Origin: Methylomonas montana | Lineage (GTDB): Bacteria > Pseudomonadota > Gammaproteobacteria > Methylococcales > Methylomonadaceae | DNA length: 64,000 nt | NCBI RefSeq assembly: GCF_030490285.1 | Contig: NZ_CP129884.1 | Span: forward strand, 62,001 to 126,000 | Direction of reading: 5' to 3' | In this document: one piece after another, positions 4,146 through 14,218 of the stretch | Layout: each line of letters begins with the position of its first letter | How positions within the stretch are numbered: the first letter of the stretch is position 1 | Position numbers and translations under genes: made by a program | Notes under the pieces: generated by a model | What the model was told of the DNA's origin: nothing | What the model saw: the letters and a program-made list of their open reading frames with translations, nothing else | The model's database searches: none

Positions 4146-4433
4146 CTAATTGTTTGCTTGCAGATAGCTGATGACGTTGAATGTGGCGCCCTGTGGGTCT
4201 TGCAACACGCAGAAGCGTCCGACCTGGGGAATGTCGCGCGGCGGCATGCAAATCGTGCCGCCCATGTCCTCGTCGGCGCATTTCACCAGGGTGTAATCGA
4301 CGCCGGGTAAGGATGCCGGAGCAGGTTCCAGTGTCCAGTTAAACAGTTTGGCGTAAAAACGTTTGGCGGCGTCGGCGTCGCTGGTCAGTAGTTCGCACCA
4401 GCTGAACGCGCCATGCCGATTGCATTGATCCAT
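4146..4433 (-). CDS. VOC-family protein with an internal in-frame deletion
   Basis: This 95-residue protein is a shortened relative of the 132-residue protein at 11603-12001. Both share the start HGAFSWCELLT, then FNWTLEPAP, and the end DIPQVGRFCVLQDPQGA. The middle differs: about 36 residues between two Gly-Gly pairs in the long copy are missing here, with the reading frame kept. The lost part includes the strand and helix that link the two halves of the VOC barrel, so the protein probably cannot form a normal fold on its own, although it might pair differently. The ribosome site and operon position are intact. Confidence 0.72.
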   Translation of the reverse strand: MDQCNRHGAFSWCELLTSDADAAKRFYAKLFNWTLEPAPASLPGVDYTLVKCADEDMGGTICMPPRDIPQVGRFCVLQDPQGATFNVISYLQANN

Positions 4434-4451: not shown

Positions 4452-4934
4452 TCAGGCGCAGGCTGTTTGGGATGAAAAGAAAGCCTCCATTCGGCTTTGC
4501 AGTTCGTTCGGGTCGACGTCTTCGATATGCGTGGCAATTAGCCAGTGATGGCCGAAGGGGTCGGTTACAGAACCCATCCGGTCGCCCCAGAATTGGTTGG
4601 TGGGCGGCATGATTTCCTGGGCGCCGGCCTGAATCGCATCGGCAAACACCGCGTCGGTATCGGCGACATACAGAAACTGTTTAACCGGGCTGCCGCCTAG
4701 TGTTTCCGGCGAAACATCGGTGCATTGCGGATTTTCGTCCGAGAGCATGAACATCGAATCGCCGATTTTGAATTCGGCATGGACTATTTTTCCGTCGGGG
4801 GCATTCAGACGAAAGGTTTCGCTAGCGCCGAAGGCTTTCTGATAAAACGCCAATGCCTCGGCGGCGCTGCGGACGACTAGGTACGGAGTTAGCGTGTGAT
4901 AGCCGTCTGGAATTGGTTTGATATTGGTGGGCAT
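4452..4934 (-). CDS. VOC-superfamily PhnB-like protein, first gene of the operon
   Basis: The 160-residue protein belongs to the PhnB-like VOC group: IPDGYHTLTPYLVV at the start, AFYQKAFGASE, then WGDRMGSVTDPFGHHWLIAT near the end. A paralogue lies at 12038-12523 with the same motifs. It is the first gene of a nine-gene minus-strand run ending with the beta-lactamase, with gaps of 0 to 79 bp. The promoter-like element at 5095-5124 lies about 160 bp upstream and probably drives the whole run. The biochemical role is unknown. Confidence 0.87.
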   Translation of the reverse strand: MPTNIKPIPDGYHTLTPYLVVRSAAEALAFYQKAFGASETFRLNAPDGKIVHAEFKIGDSMFMLSDENPQCTDVSPETLGGSPVKQFLYVADTDAVFADAIQAGAQEIMPPTNQFWGDRMGSVTDPFGHHWLIATHIEDVDPNELQSRMEAFFSSQTACA

Positions 4935-4966
4935 GATGATTCTCCTGGTTAAGGGAAACCCTGAAC

Positions 4967-5039
4967 AAGTCCTTCGACAGGCTCAGGTCGAACGGTAAGT
5001 GCTTGATCCGTTCGTGGCGAGCTCGTCGACCCACGGGCG
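4967..5039. repeat. REP-like bipartite inverted repeat
   Basis: Two related arms face each other. Arm one (4967-4995) contains CCTTCGACAGGCTCAGG followed by CGAACGG. Arm two (5008-5039) starts CCGTTCGTGGCGAGC and continues GTCGACC. The reverse complement of arm one lines up with arm two at CCGTTCG, GAGC and GTCGA. I recognise the CTTCGACAGGCTCAGG...CGAACGG pattern as a small dispersed repeat found in many bacterial genomes. Here it lies in the leader between the operon promoter and its first gene, where a hairpin could affect the message. Confidence 0.55.
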
Positions 5040-5094
5040 AAATCAACTCAGTCAGAGTTTCCTGGTTGAGTGGTTATAAATTTTGCTTACTTGG

Positions 5095-5124
5095 TTAGTC
5101 GAACGGTAATCGTCAAAATCGACA
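5095..5124 (-). promoter_or_regulatory. ECF42-type promoter for the 4934-426 operon
   Basis: On the minus strand the -35 box is TGTCGA (5119-5124) and the -10 box is CGACTAA (5095-5101), with 17 bp between them. Three more sites in the window have the same two boxes and the same spacing. The element lies 22 bp beyond the attC-like site at 5146-5197. Confidence 0.7.
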
Positions 5125-5145
5125 TTCCCGCCGAATTTAGTTTCT

Positions 5146-5197
5146 CAATAACACTAGGCGCTACGCCTTTCGGCATCGCCGGGGGTGAACCGTTAGC
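5146..5197 (-). other. Probable attC (integron cassette recombination) site
   Basis: On the minus strand the stop codon of the SRPBCC gene lies inside GCTAACG (R'', 5197-5191). The other end is GTTATTG (R', 5152-5146). Between them the two arms can pair as an imperfect hairpin with bulges, around AC-GGCG-T-GCC on one arm and its complement on the other. The length of 52 bp fits short attC sites. The R' box is poorer than consensus GTTRRRY, so this site is less certain than those at 5644 and 13236. Confidence 0.45.
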
Positions 5198-5615
5198 TGC
5201 TTGCAACTAACGCCTGAAGTTTATCCAGAACCTGCTCATTTGCCGGTTCGACGATATGGGCAATATTCCTAGCCGCTTCTTCGTTATCAAAATCTTGATG
5301 CCAGTGTATGACTGCGCCGCCCTCAATATCTTCAATGGTCACTGTCAGCGTGAAATATGGATTTGAATTATGACGAATCGCGACTTTATTCGGTTCTTCA
5401 ATTTCTTGAAATATGTTTTCGTTTGGGTAGTTTGTGCCATCCGGTCCATGCATCACAAATGACCATTTTCCTTTTGGTTTGAATTCAAAAGTATTGAATG
5501 TATTAGTGAAGCCGGCTGGTCCCCACCATTTTGCCAAAAGTGTCTGATCTGCAAATGCCTTAAATATTTCTTTTGAAGATGCCGTAATCTTTCTCTGATT
5601 TTTAAATACTTTCAT
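5193..5615 (-). CDS. SRPBCC / AHSA1-like protein, cassette-borne
   Basis: The 140-residue protein starts MKVFKNQRKI and carries the AHSA1-type landmarks FADQTLLAKWWGPAGFTNTF and GKWSFVMHGPDG. It probably binds a small ligand in the SRPBCC cavity; nothing more specific is visible. Its codon use is clearly more AT-rich than the genes on either side. The gene sits exactly between two attC-like sites: the message starts 29 bp after the R' box of the site at 5644-5767, and its TAA stop is inside the R'' box of the site at 5146-5197. This is the layout of an integron gene cassette. A ribosome site (AGGAGAT) precedes the start. Confidence 0.87.
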   Translation of the reverse strand: MKVFKNQRKITASSKEIFKAFADQTLLAKWWGPAGFTNTFNTFEFKPKGKWSFVMHGPDGTNYPNENIFQEIEEPNKVAIRHNSNPYFTLTVTIEDIEGGAVIHWHQDFDNEEAARNIAHIVEPANEQVLDKLQALVASS

Positions 5616-5643
5616 CTTGCATCTCCTTTCGGCTTTTTGTAGC

Positions 5644-5767
5644 CGCTAACGTAAAGCTAAGGGGCGCGTCTTTCACGGCAGATTAGCGAAGCCACCGAAG
5701 CTGGAAAATAATCAAACTTTCAAAACCGCCCCGAAAAGGCGAGTCCCGCTTGAGGGTAATGTTAGGC
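5644..5767 (-). other. attC-like integron recombination site, long VCR-like form
   Basis: On the minus strand the site starts with GCCTAAC (R'', 5767-5761), which contains the TAA stop of the YCII gene, and ends with GTTAGCG (R', 5650-5644). Next to R'' is CTCAAGCGGG and next to R' is CCCCTTAGC. These pair as an imperfect helix with two extra bases on one side, the hallmark of L''/L' boxes. The same CTCAAG...GGG and CCCCTTAG words occur in the Vibrio cholerae repeat. The total of 124 bp is within the attC range. Confidence 0.72.
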
Positions 5768-6127
5768 TGCAAAATCTGCTTCCTCATACTCTGGACGAAT
5801 TTCAATGTCAGAGTCTTCTAGCATTGGATTTGGACATCGCTTAACCCATTCGACGGCCTCATCCAGCGATTTAACCTGCCAAATCCAGTAACCGGCAATT
5901 TGATCTTCCGATTCGAGGAATGGGCCGTCGATTACGGTGCGCTGTGTACCAGAGAACCTGACGCGCTTCCCCTGCGAAGTGGGCTTTAAACCAGCGCAAC
6001 CGAGCATAATGCCGGCATTTATTAGCTCCTCATTGTACTTACCCATTGCCGCAAGTATTTCGGAGCTCGGTTTAAAGCCTTCTTTTTCGCTGCCCTTGCT
6101 TGCCTTAACAATAACCATGCATTTCAT
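5762..6127 (-). CDS. YCII-family protein, cassette-borne copy 1
   Basis: The 121-residue protein has the start MKCMVIVKASKGSE and the core TVIDGPFLESEDQIAGYW, a variant of the DGPF motif, and ends in a PMLEDSDIEIRPEYE tail typical of this YCII subgroup. By eye it differs from the copy at 13292-13657 at 13 of 121 positions. Its stop codon is part of the R'' box of the attC-like site at 5644-5767. A GTTAGAC word at 6171-6177, 44 bp upstream of the start, may mark the other edge of the cassette. It lies 65 bp downstream of the YCII gene at 6193 and may be read from that gene's ECF42-type promoter. Confidence 0.9.
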   Translation of the reverse strand: MKCMVIVKASKGSEKEGFKPSSEILAAMGKYNEELINAGIMLGCAGLKPTSQGKRVRFSGTQRTVIDGPFLESEDQIAGYWIWQVKSLDEAVEWVKRCPNPMLEDSDIEIRPEYEEADFAA

Positions 6128-6192
6128 TTAAATTTCTCCTTTTGATGCCAATCTGGCAGTGGCGTTGGATGTCTAACAAATAATATTGCCTG

Positions 6193-6585
6193 CTAAAGCG
6201 AGGCATTCGGATTGGCGAGACCGAGCGCGTATAACGTCCGTTCGTCCTCCGCCACCGGCCGCACCTCGACGCAGCCGAACTTCGCGCCCGGAATGTGCGC
6301 GGCGATCTGGATCGCCTCGTTCAGATCCCGAGCCTCGATCAGGTAATAACCGCCGAGTTGCTCCTTGGTCTCGGCGAAAGGGCCGTCGGTGGTGCTGACC
6401 TTGCCGTTCCGCACTCGCAACGTGATCGCGGCATTGGCCGGCAGCAGCCGATTGCAGCTTAGGTAATGGCCGCCGTCGCGGATGGTTTGGGTAAAGTCGG
6501 CGTATTCTTGGATGTGCTGTTCGGCAATATCGTCCGGCATTTGTTCCAGCACCGTTTCGGCGCAAATCAGGCATAGGTATTTCAT
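6193..6585 (-). CDS. YCII-related (DGPF-motif) protein
   Basis: I chose the ATG at 6585 (130 residues) because GGAGGAAT lies just upstream; an open frame continues to 6666 but runs through the promoter. The protein starts MKYLCLICAE and contains TDGPFAETKEQLGGYYLIEA, the exact DGPF signature. A close paralogue is at 13769-14152. It is preceded by an ECF42-type promoter at 6620-6650 and followed by the cassette-like YCII gene. Family members are the typical partners of ECF42 sigma factors; the activity is unknown. Confidence 0.92.
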   Translation of the reverse strand: MKYLCLICAETVLEQMPDDIAEQHIQEYADFTQTIRDGGHYLSCNRLLPANAAITLRVRNGKVSTTDGPFAETKEQLGGYYLIEARDLNEAIQIAAHIPGAKFGCVEVRPVAEDERTLYALGLANPNASL

Positions 6586-6619
6586 CGTCAATTCCTCCGG
6601 TTTGAGAGTGTTCACGCCG

Positions 6620-6650
6620 AATAGTCGTTTGGGGATAGTCGAATTCGACA
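6620..6650 (-). promoter_or_regulatory. ECF42-type promoter in front of the YCII gene at 6193
   Basis: Minus strand: -35 TGTCGA at 6645-6650, 17 bp spacer, -10 CGACTATT at 6620-6627. The start codon is 35 bp further downstream. The two boxes and spacing match the elements at 5095, 13711 and 14188. Confidence 0.72.
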
Positions 6651-6888
6651 TGTTTGGACAGCCCATGGAAAAAATTTTACGACGACTGTCCGGATCGGGC
6701 GGAAAACCGGCCAGTTAATCTAATTTCGGAAAACTTATGCTGAGCGGTGAGAGGTATTGGTCAAGTTATTAGGGGTAGCAGAAGCCGGTTCGGTTGAAAA
6801 GGTGGGGATGCGATTTAGAACAGCTTGCATCCCTACCTTTCCATTTTACGAAGAAAAATTGATCCGCCATTCACTTGAGGCAGGCAGA

Positions 6889-7515
6889 TTATTTCGCACC
6901 CTTGAATGTGGTGTAGCTGGAGATCAAATTACGGTAATCGGGAATATGATTGGAGAATAGCGCACCCAAGCCCTCGACGTCGTTACGCCAGTCGCGATGC
7001 AGTTCGCAGGCGGTACCAAACCAGGTCATCAATTGCGCGCCCGCCGCCGACATCCGATCCCAGGCGGCGTTTCGGGTCATGTCGTTGAAAGTGCCGGAGG
7101 CATCGGTTACTACAAACACTTGGTAACCCTCAGCCAGCGCCGATAAAGCCGGAAAAGCGACGCAGACTTCCGTGACCACGCCAGCGATGATCAGCTGTTT
7201 CTTGCCGGTGGCTTTGACGGCCTTGACGAAATCCTCGTTGTCCCAGGCATTGATTTGGCCGGGGCGGGCGATATACGGCGCATCCGGGAAGATTTCTTTC
7301 AATTCGGGGACGAGAGGGCCGTTGGGGCCATCCTCGAAACTGGTGGTGAGGATGGTGGGTAGATTGAAGTACTTTGCCAAATCAGCCAGGGCCAACACAT
7401 TGTTTTTGAATTTGTCGGGTTCGATGTCTCGAACCAGAGACAATAATCCGGCCTGATGGTCGACCAGCAGCACGGCAGCATTGTTTTTGTCGAGACGGAG
7501 GTAAGGTGTTGTCAT
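6889..7515 (-). CDS. ycaC: YcaC-like isochorismatase-family hydrolase
   Basis: The 208-residue protein follows E. coli YcaC closely from end to end as far as I recall that sequence, including VLLVDHQAGLLSLVRDIEPD near the start, YIARPGQINAWDNEDFV and CELHRDWRNDVEGL. The cysteine-hydrolase residues Asp19 and Cys118 are in place (VVTEVCVAFP). The family folds as isochorismatase-like hydrolases that form large rings; the physiological substrate of YcaC is unknown. It is a single gene, 267 bp downstream of the ECF42 gene, with an AGGAGAAAT ribosome site. No ECF42-type promoter is visible in front of it. Confidence 0.92.
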   Translation of the reverse strand: MTTPYLRLDKNNAAVLLVDHQAGLLSLVRDIEPDKFKNNVLALADLAKYFNLPTILTTSFEDGPNGPLVPELKEIFPDAPYIARPGQINAWDNEDFVKAVKATGKKQLIIAGVVTEVCVAFPALSALAEGYQVFVVTDASGTFNDMTRNAAWDRMSAAGAQLMTWFGTACELHRDWRNDVEGLGALFSNHIPDYRNLISSYTTFKGAK

Positions 7516-7539
7516 GGTATTTCTCCTAGCTGGTTAAAA

Positions 7540-7584
7540 GGTGCCTGGGCACCGGTTGAAAATCCGCCGTCGCTTGGCGGCGGA
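7540..7584. repeat. Pair of hairpins between ycaC and the sigma factor gene
   Basis: A perfect palindrome GGTGCC-TG-GGCACC lies at 7540-7553. A second stem pairs TCCGCC with GGCGGA at 7563-7584. No T-run follows on either strand, so neither is a clear terminator. They may be remains of a small mobile repeat. Confidence 0.4.
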
Positions 7585-7782
7585 GCGAACCTCGCTTCAC
7601 ATTTGACCAAAACGGCCACTGTTGAAGTCATCAATGGCTTGCAGGATTTCCTGCTAATCGCTTCAACCCGCTGCTCCGCGCTCCCGGACAAATTCGATAG
7701 GAGCGGGACAATTCGCAATACCGGTTTGTGGTATCGGGTAAAAAGCATAGGCTATGGTCGGCGTCGTATTCCAAGTACTTTC

Positions 7783-9075
7783 TTATCCGCGTAGTTCGCT
7801 CAATCTGCGCTCCAGAAAACGTCGCTCCGGTTCTTGGCGAGTCAGCAGTAGCGCTTGTTGGTATGCCGCCACGGCTTCAGCGGTTCTGCCTAGTCGGCGG
7901 TACAGATCGGCCTGCGCGGCGTACACCAGGTGATAAGCGGCTAGGTCGCCGCGCTCGAGGATGGCGTCGATCAGAACTAGTCCGGCGGCTGGTCCGTCGC
8001 GCATCGCCACCGCTACGGCCCTATTCAGTTCGATGACAGGCGACGAATCGGCTAGCATCAATGCCTCGTAAATGACGACGATTTGCGGCCAGTCCGTGGC
8101 GGCGGCATCAGGGGCGTTGGCGTGTACCGCGGCGATGGCGGCTTGCAGGGTGTAGGAGCCGAAGCGGCGCGAAAGCAAAGCTCGGTTCACGAGCGCCGAT
8201 CCTTCCGCGATCTGTGCTCGATTCCACAATGAACGGTTCTGATCGTTCAGCAGGATCAGTTCGCCGTTTGGCGAACTACGCGCGGCGCGGCGCGATTCGT
8301 GCAATAGCATTAATGCCAACAAACCCTGTGCTTCCGGTTCCGGCAATAGCTCGACCAGCAGCCGCCCCAAGCGTATCGCTTCCTCCGACAAATCGTGTCG
8401 GGTCAGTGAGTCGCCTGACGAGGCGGAATAGCCTTCGTTGAACACCAGATAAACCACCCGCAGCACGGAATCCAGGCGATCGGTCAGTTCGGCCTGCGCC
8501 GGTACTTGATAGGGAATGCGGGCGTCGCGGATCTTGGCCTTGGCGCGAACGATGCGTTGGGCGAGGGTTGGCGCCGGCGTCAGGAAGGCGCGGGCGATTT
8601 CCTCAGTCGCCAGGCCGCATACCTCGCGCAGTGTTAGCGCTACTTGGGCGTCCGCCGATAATGCCGGATGACAGCAGGTAAAGATCAGTCGCAGCCGGTC
8701 GTCCTCCAAGCTCTCGTCGTCCCAGGCGTTGTCGGTTTCGCTGGCTGGATCGGCCAAAGCATCGGCATCCTCCAGCACGTCGAAGCGGGCTTGCCGGCGT
8801 AGGCCGTCGATAGCCTTGAAACGGCCGGCCGATACCAGCCAGGCGCGCGGATTGGCCGGCACGCCGTCGCGCGACCATTGTTCCAAGGCGGTTCGGAAGG
8901 CGTCGTGCAGCGCTTCCTCGGCAACATCAAAATCGCCAAGCAGGCGGACCAGCGTGGCAAAAATATGGCGGGATTCGCTACGGTATAGAGCGTTCACTGT
9001 TTCGCGCACGGCATCCTCGTTGGGCGGCGGCAAGTTTGCGGTCACTGCTAAGAGGTCTTCACAATAGTCATTCAT
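7783..9075 (-). CDS. ECF42-type RNA polymerase sigma factor
   Basis: The 430-residue protein has a sigma region 2 (about residues 25-100: IFATLVRLLGDFDVAEEALHDA, then NPRAWLVSAGRFKAIDGLRR) and a sigma region 4 (about 125-190: LTLREVCGLATEEIARAFL, APTLAQRIVRAKAKIR). A long alpha-helical C-terminal extension (190-430) with TPR-like character follows. ECF sigmas are normally about 200 residues; this extension is the mark of group ECF42. That group has no anti-sigma factor and is coded next to DGPF/YCII genes, exactly as here. It probably directs RNA polymerase to the four TGTCGA-N17-CGACTA sites. A weak similar element stands just before its own start (AGTCGA, 16 bp, CAACTA). Confidence 0.93.
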   Translation of the reverse strand: MNDYCEDLLAVTANLPPPNEDAVRETVNALYRSESRHIFATLVRLLGDFDVAEEALHDAFRTALEQWSRDGVPANPRAWLVSAGRFKAIDGLRRQARFDVLEDADALADPASETDNAWDDESLEDDRLRLIFTCCHPALSADAQVALTLREVCGLATEEIARAFLTPAPTLAQRIVRAKAKIRDARIPYQVPAQAELTDRLDSVLRVVYLVFNEGYSASSGDSLTRHDLSEEAIRLGRLLVELLPEPEAQGLLALMLLHESRRAARSSPNGELILLNDQNRSLWNRAQIAEGSALVNRALLSRRFGSYTLQAAIAAVHANAPDAAATDWPQIVVIYEALMLADSSPVIELNRAVAVAMRDGPAAGLVLIDAILERGDLAAYHLVYAAQADLYRRLGRTAEAVAAYQQALLLTRQEPERRFLERRLSELRG

Positions 9076-9656
9076 GTTAGTTGTAGCGTGTTTTCAATCT
9101 CGACTGGGGCGTTTTTGTCGGCATTTCTGACTCGGTAAGCACTCGGCATCATGTTTTCGCCATCGATAAGATCTTACTCGCAGTTCGCCAATTTCGGCCG
9201 GTAAAGCCGCGTTGCACGTCTCTTCGGGGGTAGCCGACACCAATTCAGCTGCAAACCCGGCTAGATTTTGAACGCGGGAGTTAGGCCATAACCCGGCAGT
9301 AAAATTTTTCAAGTAACGGCAGGTGAAGGCTTGAGCGTTGCCATTCAATGTTAAGCTAAATTCTTTAAATCAAACGAACATTGGAAACCAATTTTTTACC
9401 TACCAAGCGAGCTTATTCCGCGATACCCAGCGATTCAAAAGTTGTAGTGCATGCGCGATTACTTGCCGCTTTTTATTTTGCCCCATTTGGGTTATGTTGA
9501 AAACGCTGGAAGCTTGTATTTTCTAGCCAACTTTTTGAGCTATCCGAAGGATACGTGGCTTGACTGAATCAATCGAACGGAAATAGATAGAGCCTGGTTA
9601 GTTTTTGCATTTTTGCTAAAAACTTTTTTGTGTTGCCTGGCATGAGGACATACATC
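9076..9656. other. Intergenic region between the divergent sigma factor and PEP-CTERM genes
   Basis: No convincing gene was found in this stretch. One minus-strand open frame (9094-9348) has no recognisable motif and poor codon structure. The part nearest 9657 is AT-rich and probably holds the promoter of the PEP-CTERM gene. I see no repeat, tRNA or clear terminator. Confidence 0.5.
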
Positions 9657-10436
9657 ATGTATAACTTATTGTCTCGTTCACTTGTCATCCTCGGTGGTTT
9701 ACTGGCAGCGCCCGTGCCGGCGAACGCCGCGCCTATTGTTTTTTCAGGTGCCGGAACGAATGCTGCGAGCATCCAAGGCGTCGTCGATTCTTACCGCGCA
9801 GCCCTAGGGTCAAATCGTCGCGAGATCGATTGGGATGGCGGAGGGCTGCAAACGACGACTAACGCTGGCACGCCATTCAATGGTTTCTTGAACTCGGAAG
9901 GGGTGCTATTTATGACACCAGGGTCAGGTTTCATACAGGCCACCCCGGATGGATTGGTGTCTATCAATCCGACCTATGGGGGATTCGAGACTTTTAGCCC
10001 GTTTCGGCTTTTTACACCGGTCGCCAGTAACATCACCGATGTCTTATTTTATACGCCTGGTTCCAATGGTGCCAATGCTGTCACGATTTCCGGATTCGGC
10101 GCGATTTTCAGCGATGTTGATCTGGTTGCAACCACCTCGCTGCAATATTTCGACCCGAATGGGAATCAACTTGGCACATTCTTCGCCTCGCCACTTGGGG
10201 ATGGCCTTTCCTTTCTTGGTGTGTTGTTTGACGGCGGTGAGCTGGTTTCTAGGGTGAGGATTACCACAGGCACTACTGTCCTGGGACAGAATGACGGGTC
10301 AGGTACTGACGTGGTGGTTATGGATAATTTTATCTACGCAATTCCACAAGCGGATCGAACAGTACCGGAACCTGCCACATGGCTTTTATTAGGTATCGGT
10401 TTGGCGGGGTTTTACTGGAGAAAGCAGAAAGCGTAA
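9657..10436 (+). CDS. PEP-CTERM sorting domain protein
   Basis: I chose the ATG at 9657 because GAGGA lies 7 bp upstream and it gives a clean signal peptide (hydrophobic core LVILGGLLAAPVPANA). The 259-residue protein ends in VPEPATWLLLGIGLAGF followed by WRKQKA. This is the PEP motif, a transmembrane helix and a basic tail, recognised by exosortase in Gram-negative bacteria. The body is rich in Gly, Thr and Asn with predicted beta strands and no catalytic motif, so it is likely a surface or secreted structural protein. No exosortase gene is in this window. Confidence 0.92.
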   Translation: MYNLLSRSLVILGGLLAAPVPANAAPIVFSGAGTNAASIQGVVDSYRAALGSNRREIDWDGGGLQTTTNAGTPFNGFLNSEGVLFMTPGSGFIQATPDGLVSINPTYGGFETFSPFRLFTPVASNITDVLFYTPGSNGANAVTISGFGAIFSDVDLVATTSLQYFDPNGNQLGTFFASPLGDGLSFLGVLFDGGELVSRVRITTGTTVLGQNDGSGTDVVVMDNFIYAIPQADRTVPEPATWLLLGIGLAGFYWRKQKA

Positions 10437-10584
10437 AAGATCATTTACCACCATGGTCTATACCTTAATCCTCGTCTTTGATTTCAATGCCTCTCCTGAC
10501 CAATCGTCATTGCCAGTAATAATTTATCCACCCCGCCAGGCTCATCTTAGATTGCGCACCCCGACTCCATTCTTTCCAGAACGG

Positions 10585-11505
10585 CTATCGGACTTGCAAT
10601 CCGTCTATGGCATGCCCGTAGACACCCGCCATTCCATTATCTGAATCCTTGATGTCATACTTCGACACCCACGGCAGCCAGCCGTGCTCTTTGGTGTGTA
10701 TTCGGTAGGTCTTGTTCTTGATGGCTACTCCGTCAATCGGATCACCATAGATTCCGGCCATGCCGTTATCTTCATCGCTGATATCCATCTTTTTAACCGG
10801 TGCTAGCCAGCCATGTTTTGCGGTGTGCACCCTGTATTCGGTGCCCGCAACCGCTAAACCGTCTATCGGCTTACCAAAGCTTCCCGCATAGCCGTCATCG
10901 GTATCATCGACTTGGTTAACAGGCGGCAACCACCCGCCGCCCTTGATATGAACCTGAATTGTGGTCGCGTTGCCTTTGGGCTCAGTTGGGGTTGTGCTAC
11001 CGCTGCCGCTTGCGCCAGTCCATCGAAGTATATAGTTCCATGGGTAGTTATAATATTTAAGTACCTCGATCTCATGGCCGTTTTGGTCGCCGGGTTTGCC
11101 GTCTGTTCCATCTGAATTGTCGCCTTTCTCGTTCCATGAAGCTTGTACGAGACATTTCTTGCCATGGTATTTACCGGGGCCGTCGTAAATATCTAGGTAA
11201 AAAGCGACGTGTCCTTTGTGTTTCTTTGTTTTTTTATCATAGTAGTCATAGAGTAGGATATCACCACGCTTCTTACTGGATTCGGAGATGGTTTTCCAGC
11301 CCCTTGCCACCAGATTGTCACGCATATCGCCCGTGTATGACGCGCCTCCGATATCAAATCCCCCATGTTTCAGGGCTGTACACACCAGGCTGGAACAGTC
11401 ATAATCGGGTTTGCCTTTTCGTCCTTCCGAGCCCCAGTTATAGCCGTGTGAGTCGTCGTTAGCGATATCGACGGCGAATTTAAGTGCTTTTTCTAAATTT
11501 GGCAT
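10585..11505 (-). CDS. Endolysin-like cysteine peptidoglycan hydrolase with three C-terminal repeats
   Basis: The 306-residue protein has an N-terminal amidase/NlpC-CHAP-like domain: GYNWGSEGRKGKPDYDCSSL with the likely nucleophile Cys37, and KGHVAFY with His99. A Gly/Ser/Thr linker near 170-180 leads to three repeats of about 42 residues (roughly 183-222, 225-264, 267-305). Each has the pattern hydrophobic-H-x-GWL-x-PV or WV, then D-x-D-N/G-G-x-AG and a final I-D-G. This resembles bacteriophage lysins of the Amidase_5 type and the C-terminal repeats of Firmicutes phage and autolysin proteins. No signal peptide is seen, as in endolysins that need a holin. A GAGGTAAT ribosome site precedes the ATG. 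No other phage gene is nearby. Confidence 0.8.
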   Translation of the reverse strand: MPNLEKALKFAVDIANDDSHGYNWGSEGRKGKPDYDCSSLVCTALKHGGFDIGGASYTGDMRDNLVARGWKTISESSKKRGDILLYDYYDKKTKKHKGHVAFYLDIYDGPGKYHGKKCLVQASWNEKGDNSDGTDGKPGDQNGHEIEVLKYYNYPWNYILRWTGASGSGSTTPTEPKGNATTIQVHIKGGGWLPPVNQVDDTDDGYAGSFGKPIDGLAVAGTEYRVHTAKHGWLAPVKKMDISDEDNGMAGIYGDPIDGVAIKNKTYRIHTKEHGWLPWVSKYDIKDSDNGMAGVYGHAIDGLQVR

Positions 11506-11602
11506 TTGGATTACCTCTTATTGTCATGGTAAGTTCAAAGATCAGGGATACGCCATTTGCGGCGTCTCCCTAAGACCAAGGGCGTTCTACAAACCAGCCT
11601 CA

Positions 11603-12001
11603 TCAGCCGCAATGCTGAAAATAGGTTATGGCGCTGATCATGGCGCCTTGCGGGTCTTGCAGCACGCAGAAGCGTCCGACCTGAGGAATATCCTGCGGCG
11701 GCAAACAAATTTTTCCGCCCAGTTCCACGGCCAGCTCTGCGGTGGCATCGACATCGTCGACCGTGACATAAACACCCCAATGCGGTGGCACGCCTTCGGC
11801 GGTGGCTGGTAACTTCATCATGCCGCCGGCCGGTTCGCTACCGTATTTCACCAGGGTGTATTCCATTTCCGGGGTGGATATAGGCGCCGGTTCCAGCGTC
11901 CAATTGAACAGCTTGCCGTAAAACTGTTTGGCGGCATCGGTATCGGTGGTCAGTAGTTCGCACCAGCTAAAGGCGCCGTGCGTATTGCAGGGTTGATTCA
12001 T
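11603..12001 (-). CDS. VOC-superfamily protein, full-length paralogue of 4146-4433
   Basis: The 132-residue protein starts with HGAFSWCELLTTDTDAA and ends with DIPQVGRFCVLQDPQGA, and holds the central GVYVTVDDVDATAELAVELG that the shorter copy lacks. It has two complete beta-alpha-beta-beta-beta modules, like the glyoxalase-type VOC proteins. The substrate is unknown. It lies 36 bp downstream of a PhnB-like VOC gene, mirroring the pair 4452/4146 in the first group, and is probably the last gene of the second group. Confidence 0.88.
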   Translation of the reverse strand: MNQPCNTHGAFSWCELLTTDTDAAKQFYGKLFNWTLEPAPISTPEMEYTLVKYGSEPAGGMMKLPATAEGVPPHWGVYVTVDDVDATAELAVELGGKICLPPQDIPQVGRFCVLQDPQGAMISAITYFQHCG

Positions 12002-12037
12002 GATTTTTCTCCGTTGATTGAATAGGTTTGCAGCTTG

Positions 12038-12523
12038 TCAGTTGTCGCGACTTTGATTCGCGGCGAAGAAAGTCTCCATCCGCTCTTGCAATTCGCTCGG
12101 GTCGATGTCTTCGACATGGGTCGCGACCAACCAATGATGGCCGAAGGGATCGACCAGCGAGCCCATACGGTCGCCCCAGAACTGATTTTCGACCGGCATG
12201 GTTTCCTTGGCGCCAGCCGCAATCGCCCGAGAAAACACCGCATCGGCATCGGTCACATACAAATGCAATTTGACGGTGCTGCCGCCCAGGGTTTGCGGCG
12301 ACGTAGAATTCGGATTCGGATATTCGTCCGAGAGCATGAAATTCGATTCACCGATCTTGAATTCGGCATGACCCACTTTGCCGTCCGGCATATGCAGGCG
12401 TAGTACTTCGCTGGCACCGAAGGCCTTTTTATAAAACGCCAGCGCCGCGTCTGCGTCATGGACCGTCAGGTAGGGAGTGACGGTATGGCAACCGTCTGGA
12501 ATAGGTTTGATTTGTGTGGTCAT
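12038..12523 (-). CDS. VOC-superfamily PhnB-like protein, paralogue of 4452-4934
   Basis: The 161-residue protein shares with 4452-4934 the start IKPIPDGCHTVTPYL, AFYKKAFGASE, and FWGDRMGSLVDPFGHHWLVAT. The fold is VOC; no catalytic claim can be made beyond that. An AGAGGAATT ribosome site precedes the ATG. The 208 bp upstream hold a possible, degenerate attC-like site (12557-12730) but no ECF42-type promoter, so it may be read from the promoter at 13711-13741. Confidence 0.88.
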   Translation of the reverse strand: MTTQIKPIPDGCHTVTPYLTVHDADAALAFYKKAFGASEVLRLHMPDGKVGHAEFKIGESNFMLSDEYPNPNSTSPQTLGGSTVKLHLYVTDADAVFSRAIAAGAKETMPVENQFWGDRMGSLVDPFGHHWLVATHVEDIDPSELQERMETFFAANQSRDN

Positions 12524-12556
12524 AAATTCCTCTTGTTTGTGAAAAATGTTTTGTGT

Positions 12557-12730
12557 GCTTAACGCACTTCTCAGTCGCGAGAGAACCGAGTCGGCTGAAG
12601 AAAACTGTTATCCCGCCTGTCGTTCAAGCAGGAACATACTCCCCTTGCGTCGAAATCGGCAGGCTCAGGACCAGAAGGTCGTTCGTCATCTACCCATTGC
12701 GACTCCGCGTGTAGGCTTCCACGTTGTCAC
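12557..12730 (-). other. Possible degenerate attC-like site
   Basis: Minus strand: GACAAC at 12728-12723 could be R'', and GTTAAGC at 12563-12557 fits the R' consensus GTTRRRY. AGTCGC (12704-12699) pairs perfectly with GCGACT (12578-12573) inside it. At 174 bp it is long, and R'' is poor. It lies just where a cassette end would be expected, after the VOC gene at 12732, but is much less convincing than the site at 13236. Confidence 0.25.
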
Positions 12731-12731
12731 C

Positions 12732-13217
12732 TCAACCGCGGACCGCCGCCTCGATTGCAGCGATATCGATCTTTTTCATCTGCATCATCGCATCGAAAGC
12801 GCGCTTGGCAGCGGCAGGATCCGAACCGGTGATCGAGCTCGTCAAAGCCAACGGAGTAATCTGCCAGGACAGGCCCCATTTGTCCTTGCACCAGCCGCAC
12901 GCGCTCTCTTCTCCGCCGTTGCCGACGATGGCGTTCCAGTAGCGATCCGTTTCAGCCTGGTCAGCGGTTGCGACCTGAAACGAGAATGCCCAGTTGTGAT
13001 TGACCTCGGGTCCGCCGTTAAGCCCGAGGCACGGAATGCCCATCACGGTAAACTCGACCGTCAACACATCCCCTTTCTTCCCGGACGGAAAGTCTCCTGG
13101 GGCACGGTGTACCGCGCCGACGGATGAATCGGGGAAGGTCTTGGCGTAAAACCGCGCTGCGTCTTCGGCATCGCCGTTGTACCAAAGGCAAATCGTGTTT
13201 TTTGCAGGTTTCATCAT
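12732..13217 (-). CDS. VOC-superfamily protein, PhnB / 3-demethylubiquinone methyltransferase-like
   Basis: The 161-residue protein starts KPAKNTICLWYNGDAEDAA and contains LGLNGGPEVNHNWAFSF and a final MMQMKKIDIAAIEAA, placing it in the same VOC subgroup as 1215-1688. No SAM-binding motif is present, so the methyltransferase name should not be taken literally. The start codon lies 19 bp after the R' box of the attC-like site at 13236-13296, with GGAGGAGGG as ribosome site. It therefore looks like the second cassette of this group. GC content is close to the genome average, unlike the SRPBCC cassette at 5193. Confidence 0.88.
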   Translation of the reverse strand: MMKPAKNTICLWYNGDAEDAARFYAKTFPDSSVGAVHRAPGDFPSGKKGDVLTVEFTVMGIPCLGLNGGPEVNHNWAFSFQVATADQAETDRYWNAIVGNGGEESACGWCKDKWGLSWQITPLALTSSITGSDPAAAKRAFDAMMQMKKIDIAAIEAAVRG

Positions 13218-13235
13218 GACCCTCCTCCATCGGTG

Positions 13236-13296
13236 GGATAACGCCTAAATCAGGCCAATCCGCGAAAAGCGGCTTCGGCTTGACTGAATGGTTAGC
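13236..13296 (-). other. attC-like integron recombination site, 61 bp
   Basis: Minus strand: R'' GCTAACC (13296-13290) contains the TAA stop of the YCII gene; R' GTTATCC (13242-13236) ends it. The arms pair through TAAC/GTTA, then TCAAGCC with GGCCTGA, then an inner CCGC-TTTTC-GCGG hairpin, with unpaired bases on one side. Length, box order, imperfect pairing and position between two short genes are all as in cassette-type attC sites. Confidence 0.72.
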
Positions 13297-13657
13297 ATGC
13301 AAAATCCGCCTCCTCATACTCCGGACGAATTTCAATGTCGGAGTCATCCAGCATTGGATTTGGACATCGCTTCACCCATTCGACGGCCTCATCTAACGAG
13401 TTAACCTGCCAAAACCAGTAACCGGCAATTTGATCTTCCGATTCGAGGAATGGGCCGTCGATTACCGTGCGCTGCGTACCGGAGAACCTGACGCGCTTTC
13501 CCTGCGAAGTGGGCTTTAAGCCACCACAATCCAGCATGATGCCGGCCTTTGTTAGCTCATCATTGTACTTACCCATTGCCGCAAGTATTTCGGAGCTCGG
13601 ATTAAAACCCTGTTTTTCGCTGTCCTTACTTGCCTTAACAATAATCATGCATTTCAT
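13292..13657 (-). CDS. YCII-family protein, cassette-borne copy 2
   Basis: The 121-residue protein is a near copy of 5762-6127, with 13 differences by eye, and keeps TVIDGPFLESEDQIAGYW and the PMLDDSDIEIRPEYE tail. About 40 bp of upstream sequence around a CTGCCAGAT word are also shared between the copies, so the duplication included the leader. Here the leader carries a complete ECF42-type promoter (13711-13741), which copy 1 lacks. The stop codon lies in the attC-like site at 13236-13296. The function of this YCII subgroup is unknown. Confidence 0.9.
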   Translation of the reverse strand: MKCMIIVKASKDSEKQGFNPSSEILAAMGKYNDELTKAGIMLDCGGLKPTSQGKRVRFSGTQRTVIDGPFLESEDQIAGYWFWQVNSLDEAVEWVKRCPNPMLDDSDIEIRPEYEEADFAC

Positions 13658-13710
13658 TAAATTTCCCTCTTTTCAGCCGATCTGGCAGTGGAATTGGAGG
13701 CCTGACAATC

Positions 13711-13741
13711 AATAGTCGAATTGAGTTTGCTGAAATCGACA
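13711..13741 (-). promoter_or_regulatory. ECF42-type promoter in front of YCII copy 2
   Basis: Minus strand: -35 TGTCGA at 13736-13741, 17 bp spacer, -10 CGACTATT at 13711-13718. The start codon of the YCII gene is about 53 bp downstream. The neighbouring gene stop at 13769 is only 28 bp upstream. Confidence 0.72.
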
Positions 13742-13768: not shown

Positions 13769-14152
13769 CTAACAGGCTAAGTGCGCGGCCGGAAGCCCCA
13801 GTGTCTGCGAGTCTTCGGCAACCGGCCTCACTTCGACGCAGCCCAATTTAGCTCCCGGTATTCTTGAAGCCACCTGTATCGCCTCGTTCAAATCCGTGGC
13901 TTCGATCAGGAAGTAACCACCTAGCTGTTCCTTGGTTTCCGCAAACGGCCCGTCGGTCGTCGTCACTTTGCCATTCCGCACGCGCAGCGTAATCGCCGTA
14001 TTGGCGGGCAACAAACGATTACAGCCCAGGTAATGGCCACTGTCTTTGATGGCTTGCGAGAATGCCATGTATTCGTCAAAGTGCTTGGCTGCATCGCCTT
14101 CCGTCATTTGCTCAATCAAGGTTTCGCCACAAATCAGGCATAGGTATTTCAT
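13769..14152 (-). CDS. YCII-related (DGPF-motif) protein, paralogue of 6193-6585
   Basis: The 127-residue protein starts MKYLCLICGE and contains TDGPFAETKEQLGGYFLIEA. It keeps the same order of motifs as 6193-6585, including LGCNRLLPANTAITLRVRNGKV, with changes mainly in the first third and the last ten residues. It is headed by the ECF42-type promoter at 14188-14218. A GTTAGAT word overlaps its stop codon (13767-13773) and resembles an attC R' box, which may mark where the next cassette joined. Molecular function is unknown. Confidence 0.92.
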   Translation of the reverse strand: MKYLCLICGETLIEQMTEGDAAKHFDEYMAFSQAIKDSGHYLGCNRLLPANTAITLRVRNGKVTTTDGPFAETKEQLGGYFLIEATDLNEAIQVASRIPGAKLGCVEVRPVAEDSQTLGLPAAHLAC

Positions 14153-14187: not shown

Positions 14188-14218
14188 AATAGTCGTATAG
14201 GGTTCGAGCATTTCGACA
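14188..14218 (-). promoter_or_regulatory. ECF42-type promoter in front of the YCII gene at 13769
   Basis: Minus strand: -35 TGTCGA at 14213-14218, 17 bp spacer, -10 CGACTATT at 14188-14195; the start codon is 36 bp downstream. The distance to the start is nearly the same as for its paralogue at 6620-6650. Confidence 0.72.

Follow-up and report, generated by a model that had tools for sequence, protein, structure and literature searches.

Background

attC sites that have no neighbouring integron integrase have been described under the names CALIN and SALIN (PMC12690207, PMC12444791), and the excerpts of these papers used here credit to Loot et al. 2024 the insertion of cassettes at genomic sites that are neither attI nor attC, the attG type (PMC12444791, PMC12690207). 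In the same excerpts the first cassettes of CALINs are placed behind a putative promoter, which may express the first cassette (PMC12690207). ECF42 sigma factors are described, in the part of the source drawn on here, as carrying a C-terminal extension rich in TPR and as having YCII genes nearby, which may contribute to their regulation (PMC8999054). In this study we analysed a window of 64 kb from Methylomonas montana (G000:C1:62001-126000, in a genome of 4.63 Mb on a single contig), which contains two paralogous gene clusters with ECF42-type promoters, both on the minus strand. We consider it probable that each of these clusters gained a two-cassette unit by integron recombination at genomic G^TT (attG-type) sites. 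Taken from the sequence, the case consists of two attC sites (attC1 and attC2), the insertion borders, a relative in which the place of the first unit is empty, promoters that lie outside the cassettes, and an intact integrase gene (intI) in the genome.

Insertion borders

Insert 1 comprises the YCII-B1 gene with attC1, followed by an SRPBCC gene, and lies at G^TT between the host gene YCII-A1 and the promoter P2, starting 16 bp beyond the YCII-A1 stop codon. In the closest locus, that of genome G017 from the same genus (a draft of 340 contigs, 77% complete), this place is empty and reads CGCTTTAGCAGGCAAACTAGCTGTTAGAGTTATTGCGGAAATAAATTCGGCGGGAATGTCGAT. Coming from the left, the window follows G017 to about ...TTTG; next stands TTAGACATCC, which is part of the cassette, and the match resumes at TTATTGAGAAACTAAATTCGGCGGGAATGTCGAT. 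TTAGAC/TCAGGC and the sequence downstream of it are common to both YCII-B copies despite differing flanks, so that this start belongs to the cassette. The similarity of YCII-B1 and YCII-B2 begins at the G^T border and ends at about R''; their attC sites differ. VOC1 is present in 21 of 37 genus genomes, our own included. Among the 21 VOC1 loci of other genus genomes, nine have YCII-A, P2 and VOC1 in an uninterrupted row, the remaining 12 have YCII-A or P2 missing within the fetched flank, and a YCII-B or SRPBCC gene occurs in none of them by best match.

Insert 2 comprises YCII-B2 with attC2, followed by VOCdmu2. Its left border, CGACTATTGATTG^TCAGGCC, lies 7 bp past the CGACTA of P2b, and its right border is GTGCG^TTAAGCACACAAA. 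The borders of the inserts are at G^TT as in cassettes, but this left border reads G^TC. When joined, the flanks of insert 2 align with the P2 leaders of seven genus loci, which carry VOC1 and not VOC1b. In G029, whose contig begins within VOCdmu2, this gene meets the VOC1b leader at GAGG^TTAGGCATACAAAAC, and the window has 167 bp extra exactly at that junction (12563-12729). An earlier note on this DNA had proposed integron cassettes with cassette-type borders, and the empty site in G017 and the joined flanks of insert 2 bear this out.

Table 1. Features of the two clusters and their inserts (window positions)
Feature	Position	Strand	Evidence
Insert 1, two cassettes	5152..6176	-	Place vacant in G017 (L177); right border at either 5152 or 5158
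YCII-B1 cassette gene	5762..6127	-	Pfam; cassette with homologous attC in Methylovulum
attC1	5643..5768	-	R1 / R2 / R3 = 26.7 / 42.7 / 41.7 bits
SRPBCC (AHSA1) cassette gene	5193..5615	-	Pfam; 40% GC
Proposed terminal attC of insert 1, decayed or not attC	5146..5197	-	No model match; ends at insert border
Insert 2, two cassettes	12563..13705	-	Flanks, when joined, align with P2 leaders at seven genus loci
YCII-B2 cassette gene	13292..13657	-	Pfam; protein 90% identical to YCII-B1
attC2	13235..13297	-	R3 21.0 bits, E 0.018 (unfiltered, whole window)
VOCdmu2 (3-dmu-9_3-mt) cassette gene	12732..13217	-	Pfam; relatives flanked by attC
Proposed terminal attC of insert 2, decayed	12557..12730	-	R3 noise; G029 junction
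P1, ECF42-type promoter upstream of YCII-A1	6622..6650	-	Motif match
P2, ECF42-type promoter upstream of VOC1	5096..5124	-	Motif match; conserved in genus
P1b, ECF42-type promoter upstream of YCII-A2	14190..14218	-	Motif match
P2b, ECF42-type promoter 7 bp ahead of insert 2	13713..13741	-	Motif match
ECF42-type sigma factor	7783..9075	-	Pfam: regions 2 + 4, DUF6596, TPR
YCII-A1, cluster 1 host gene	6193..6582	-	Pfam; gene order conserved in genus
VOC1, cluster 1 host gene	4452..4934	-	
YCII-A2, cluster 2 host gene	13769..14152	-	Pfam
VOC1b, cluster 2 host gene	12038..12523	-	Pfam; VOC1 paralogue

Covariance models and attC sites

To avoid circularity, the three covariance models drew on integron arrays only and on no window sequence. 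R1 comprises six sites of the genome's own array; R2 has 31 sites, genus arrays being added to the own one, and R3 has 94, with class arrays added as well. attC1 is the top match of the window under all three, with an R3 E-value of 6.3e-7 (unfiltered, whole window). attC2 is matched by R3 (Table 1), and the next best R3 match of the window below it reaches 11.8 bits (E 1.7). A fast scan of the whole genome gave attC2 an E-value of 1.3 with R3, and attC1 one of 0.8 with R2 on a shortened alignment. Support is strong for attC1 and moderate for attC2, and two of the four proposed sites pass. Both YCII-B genes have an attC at their 3' end under R3, as is expected of cassettes.

The earlier note had placed good attC sites at 5644-5767 and 13236-13296; R3 recovers both, the second with moderate support and only with that model. 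Its details of geometry also agree with what we find, the stop codon lying within R'' at three sites and the next genes beginning about 18 and 28 bp past R' of attC1 and attC2. What the note had regarded as decisive, covariance matches at these two sites and the state of the locus in relatives, came out with matches at both and with the first place empty in G017. A filter based on R''/R' and folding was dropped as evidence, as it returned far too many candidates across all sequence. An Rfam scan of the window gave no matches; we know of no attC family in Rfam.

Promoters and host clusters

The motif TGTCGA-N17-CGACTA, which we take to be that of ECF42, has exactly four matches in the 64 kb, all within the two clusters, against a mean of 0.00 in 100 shuffles. 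The cluster genes are preceded by this common motif, and P2 is conserved in the genus loci. This agrees with the earlier claim that ECF42-type promoters stand upstream of the cassettes. The promoters lie outside the cassettes and belong to the host clusters; they are conserved in genomes whose clusters are without cassettes. A scan for sigma-70 promoters and terminators returned matches no commoner than in shuffles.

Cluster 1 starts with the sigma factor gene, whose product has the C-terminal TPR extension and a YCII neighbour (Pfam) as in ECF42, and continues with an isochorismatase-family gene and YCII-A1. VOC1, VOC2, VOC3, YCII-C, DUF1579, SRPBCC2, AHSA1 and a VOC-type gene (3-dmu-9_3-mt) follow, the cluster extending to 1215. 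The host genes of cluster 2 are YCII-A2, VOC1b and VOC2b. The GC content is 40% in the SRPBCC gene, 48-49% in the YCII-B genes and 53-62% in the other cluster genes. VOC2 (4146-4433, 95 aa) corresponds to its paralogue VOC2b (11603-12001, 132 aa) with an internal part missing. At the end of cluster 1 lies a transpeptidase-domain gene (PF00905, 426-1214), class D beta-lactamase-like by eye, and the region between the clusters (9630-11505) holds a plus-strand gene that is PEP-CTERM-like by eye and an NlpC/P60 or endolysin-like gene.

Relatives of the cassettes

At E 1e-20, YCII-B was found in five of 61 near genomes, our own included, the others being at most 63% identical. Among the best 80 of 402 candidates in the species collection, Methylovulum has 91% identity and the next 78%. 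Methylovulum miyakonense carries the YCII-B1 cassette with a homologous attC (89% over 505 alignment columns, gene plus attC), situated between DUF1579 and an SRPBCC2 remnant, at another point of its own cluster. At that locus (L047 5949-6600) SRPBCC2 homology resumes at the attC end with the last codons only, the first ~440 bp being missing. The intI of Methylovulum is ~300 kb from its YCII cassette. In its array 12 of 13 attC matches are 122-125 bp long, and the ten array sites that rank among the nearest to attC1 are 67-74% identical to it.

R2 and R3 were also run over 85 loci with YCII-B relatives, namely the best 80 of the 402 plus five. R2 gave E < 0.1 at the Methylovulum locus only; with R3, Methylovulum scored E 0.017 and L143 E 0.059. 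By these results, members of the YCII-B family are not generally carried on cassettes.

VOCdmu2 was found at E 1e-60 in 17 of 251 order genomes, our own included, and all 18 loci outside our genome were scanned for attC. Both G598 and G620 have an attC close to either end of the gene, and G461 has one at either end too, though one of the two scores is weak. In G508, G518 and G569 (E 0.066) a single side has a site; weaker scores near G524 and G495 were left uncounted. The gene sits in large arrays in G620 and G461. In G569 it is found in a cluster with a sigma gene, YCII-A and VOC1, and the attC after it is 83% identical to attC1 (R3 18.3 bits, E 1.2 in a large scan). In G598 an ECF42 cluster is followed by VOCdmu2 and by a gene resembling, by eye, a glutathione S-transferase; both have an attC of their own. 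VOCdmu2 had also been considered as a host gene of cluster 2; its attC-flanked relatives in other genomes ruled this out.

The SRPBCC gene was found at E 1e-25 in only three of 369 class genomes, our own included, with 45% identity at best elsewhere. In a plasmid search its relatives were below 60% in all 159 records, and relatives of YCII-B1 reached at most 64.7% among the matches listed.

The resident integron and scattered cassettes

The earlier note had reported no intI in the window, and this is correct: the sole match over the cut-off in the genome lies outside it, at C1:229389-230336 (TIGR02249, 465.5 bits against a cut-off of 265). The description of the cassettes as being without an integrase holds locally, as intI does not adjoin the window cassettes, but not for the organism, which has a full-length intI and an array 154-162 kb away. 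Over its full length (query 14-328) the IntI protein matches the IntI4 structure 2A3V. The region C1:229389-239300 (L009, L018) is a chromosomal integron with intI and ~10-11 attC sites, and its array contains what appears by eye to be an IS3-type transposase pair (L018 ~4460-5690).

Cassette scattering is general in this genome. Outside its own array and the window there are 12 attC sites at E < 0.05 (C1: 653992, 672136, 832280, 1160468, 1309643, 1310860, 4059882, 4060314, 4060895, 4280010, 4320147 and 4474144). An open frame ends near the attC at 11 of 13 dispersed sites inspected, and none is ECF42-type by eye.

Weighing the evidence

Several observations weigh against the insertion of two cassette units. 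The site that the earlier note had called probable, at 5146-5197, has no R3 match at E up to 10, and the one it had called weak, at 12557-12730, yields 11.0 bits (12556-12614), which is noise; the SRPBCC and VOCdmu2 genes are consequently without R3 support for an attC at their 3' ends. Both of these sites nevertheless finish at insertion borders, and the extra 167 bp of the window at the G029 junction nearly coincide with the second. attC2 is not matched by R1 at E up to 10, and R2 finds it only unfiltered on 16 kb (10.5 bits, E 0.44), with no match under default filters. In single-strand folding against shuffles the window sites are not singled out (z +1.3, -0.9, -0.5 and +0.5); two attC sites of the genome's own array gave -2.2 and -4.6. 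The right border of insert 1 may be placed at GTG^TTATTG or 6 bp earlier, the GC content of VOCdmu2 (58%) resembles that of the host genes, and in no relative does the insert 2 position stand vacant ahead of the same downstream gene.

A first alternative accepts real integron events and supposes that their location in ECF42 clusters is due to chance, with no useful expression from the ECF42-type promoters. We think this rather unlikely. It agrees with the cassettes with seemingly unrelated genes that are scattered across the same genome, and with a census of ECF42 regions. Sigma factors with DUF6596 occur in 30 of 201 family genomes, and the 32 regions scanned were the 30 chosen by sigma gene, the Methylovulum cluster, included because a cassette was already known there, and a contig of G029 that has no sigma gene; L261 and L262, where VOCdmu2 lies in large arrays, were scanned and excluded from the count. 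attC sites at E < 0.1 were present in three of the 32 regions (G598, G545 and Methylovulum) as against one of 26 controls (Fisher p 0.62), or in two of the 30 regions chosen by sigma gene as against the same controls (Fisher p 1.0). An excess of attC in ECF42 regions over background is not supported, the difference being not significant. The G545 sites, next to a gene that by eye resembles a transposase and at other places, were not seen behind regulon-type genes. One G545 site of 40.4 bits stands immediately ahead of an ECF42 sigma gene and beside a gene that by eye resembles a transposase (L252 4538-6346), and a control region of G515 holds a strong attC of 39.3 bits (L281 8078-8150). What speaks against chance location is that the cargo (YCII, VOC and SRPBCC) belongs to gene families that the host clusters themselves contain, that one cassette family is found in such clusters of two genera at different points, that VOCdmu2 with attC is also within or beside ECF42 clusters in G569 and G598, and that insert 2 starts 7 bp past a promoter.

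Insert 2 may, on a second and quite improbable alternative, not be a plain insertion: a YCII gene native to the P2-VOC1b interval would have gained an attC (cassette birth), or a cassette copy would have been swapped in by homologous exchange. Four family genomes (G620, G561, G515 and G514) have a YCII-B-like gene of 45-50% identity between P2 and VOC1b, so that insert 2 may partly replace a resident gene. The attC sites of YCII-B1 and YCII-B2 also differ despite 90% identity of the genes, whose similarity stops at about R''. Against an origin in place, the similarity of the two copies starts at the G^T border, the flanks of insert 2 restore the P2 leader when joined, and in a tree YCII-B1 and YCII-B2 cluster with the Methylovulum cassette, apart from the four resident genes, though with mixed support (99/26).

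A third alternative, that ordinary regulon genes have attC-like hairpins next to them by chance, would suit the folding energies and the two sites without model support, but this is highly improbable and largely refuted by the matches of independent models to attC1 and attC2, the empty site in G017 and the homologous attC after the same gene in Methylovulum.

Proposed mechanism and significance

If two cassette units were indeed gained by integron recombination, the IntI of the resident integron, or of an earlier host, probably performed it, acting at attG-type sites. Unit 1 (YCII-B1 with attC1, and SRPBCC with a decayed attC) would be co-transcribed from P1, behind YCII-A1. Unit 2 (YCII-B2 with attC2, and VOCdmu2 with a decayed attC) would start at about the expected transcription start of P2b, CGACTA being -10-like; as it begins 7 bp past this element, the promoter that serves VOC1 in relatives would serve the cassettes first. 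We infer from position only that the captured cassettes may be under sigma factor control, with the ECF42 holoenzyme transcribing them from P1 and P2b, and joining the regulon might be of benefit. YCII proteins are proposed partners of ECF42, and a captured YCII cassette might therefore alter the sigma factor's own regulation.

A wider proposal, which we hold to be possible though short of likely, is that the cassette pool of the Methylococcales is a supply line for ECF42 regulons. YCII, VOC and SRPBCC cassettes would be inserted repeatedly at attG-type sites and read from ECF42 promoters, the sigma factor taking over the role of the integron promoter Pc.

In the general view, a cassette remote from the integron promoter has little expression. 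The inserts suggest that cassettes can feed new genes into an existing regulon, and cassette insertion could account for the differences in gene content between ECF42 clusters. Because the insertions at a stress-type promoter are natural, one relative has an empty site and another genus has the same cassette elsewhere in such a cluster, the expression and retention of genomic cassettes become directly testable in methanotrophs.

Comparison with known systems

The earlier note had suggested that the arrangement was new. This needs to be divided, since attG-type insertion into the genome is itself known, while its recurrence across ECF42 clusters and the start of one insert directly after an ECF42-type promoter are new as far as searched: literature searches for integron cassettes with ECF sigma regulons, and for Methylomonas gene cassettes with integrase, found no report of them.

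The window cassettes are like CALINs and SALINs in that they bear attC, are distant from intI and belong to a genome with an integrase elsewhere. They differ in that the two attC sites, ~7.5 kb apart, are each solitary and lie within host clusters of conserved order. A CALIN has at least two clustered attC sites without intI, and here the partner sites are without model support; under the usual clustering rule, attC1 and attC2 so spaced count as two single-attC loci. As in attG-type insertion, the inserts occupy genomic sites that are neither attI nor attC and have a putative promoter upstream, but they are natural, are repeated in one kind of cluster, and have an alternative-sigma-type promoter at one border. 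Most attC sites of the Methylovulum miyakonense integron (L226) are 122-125 bp long, the length class of attC1. The window cassette, however, is outside an array, and attC1 is closer to the site that follows VOCdmu2 in G569 (83%). Finally, the ECF42 loci with YCII, as far as the cited part of PMC8999054 describes them, share with cluster 1 the C-terminal TPR extension and the adjacent YCII genes, and differ from the window in that here the cluster appears to be partly integron-borne.

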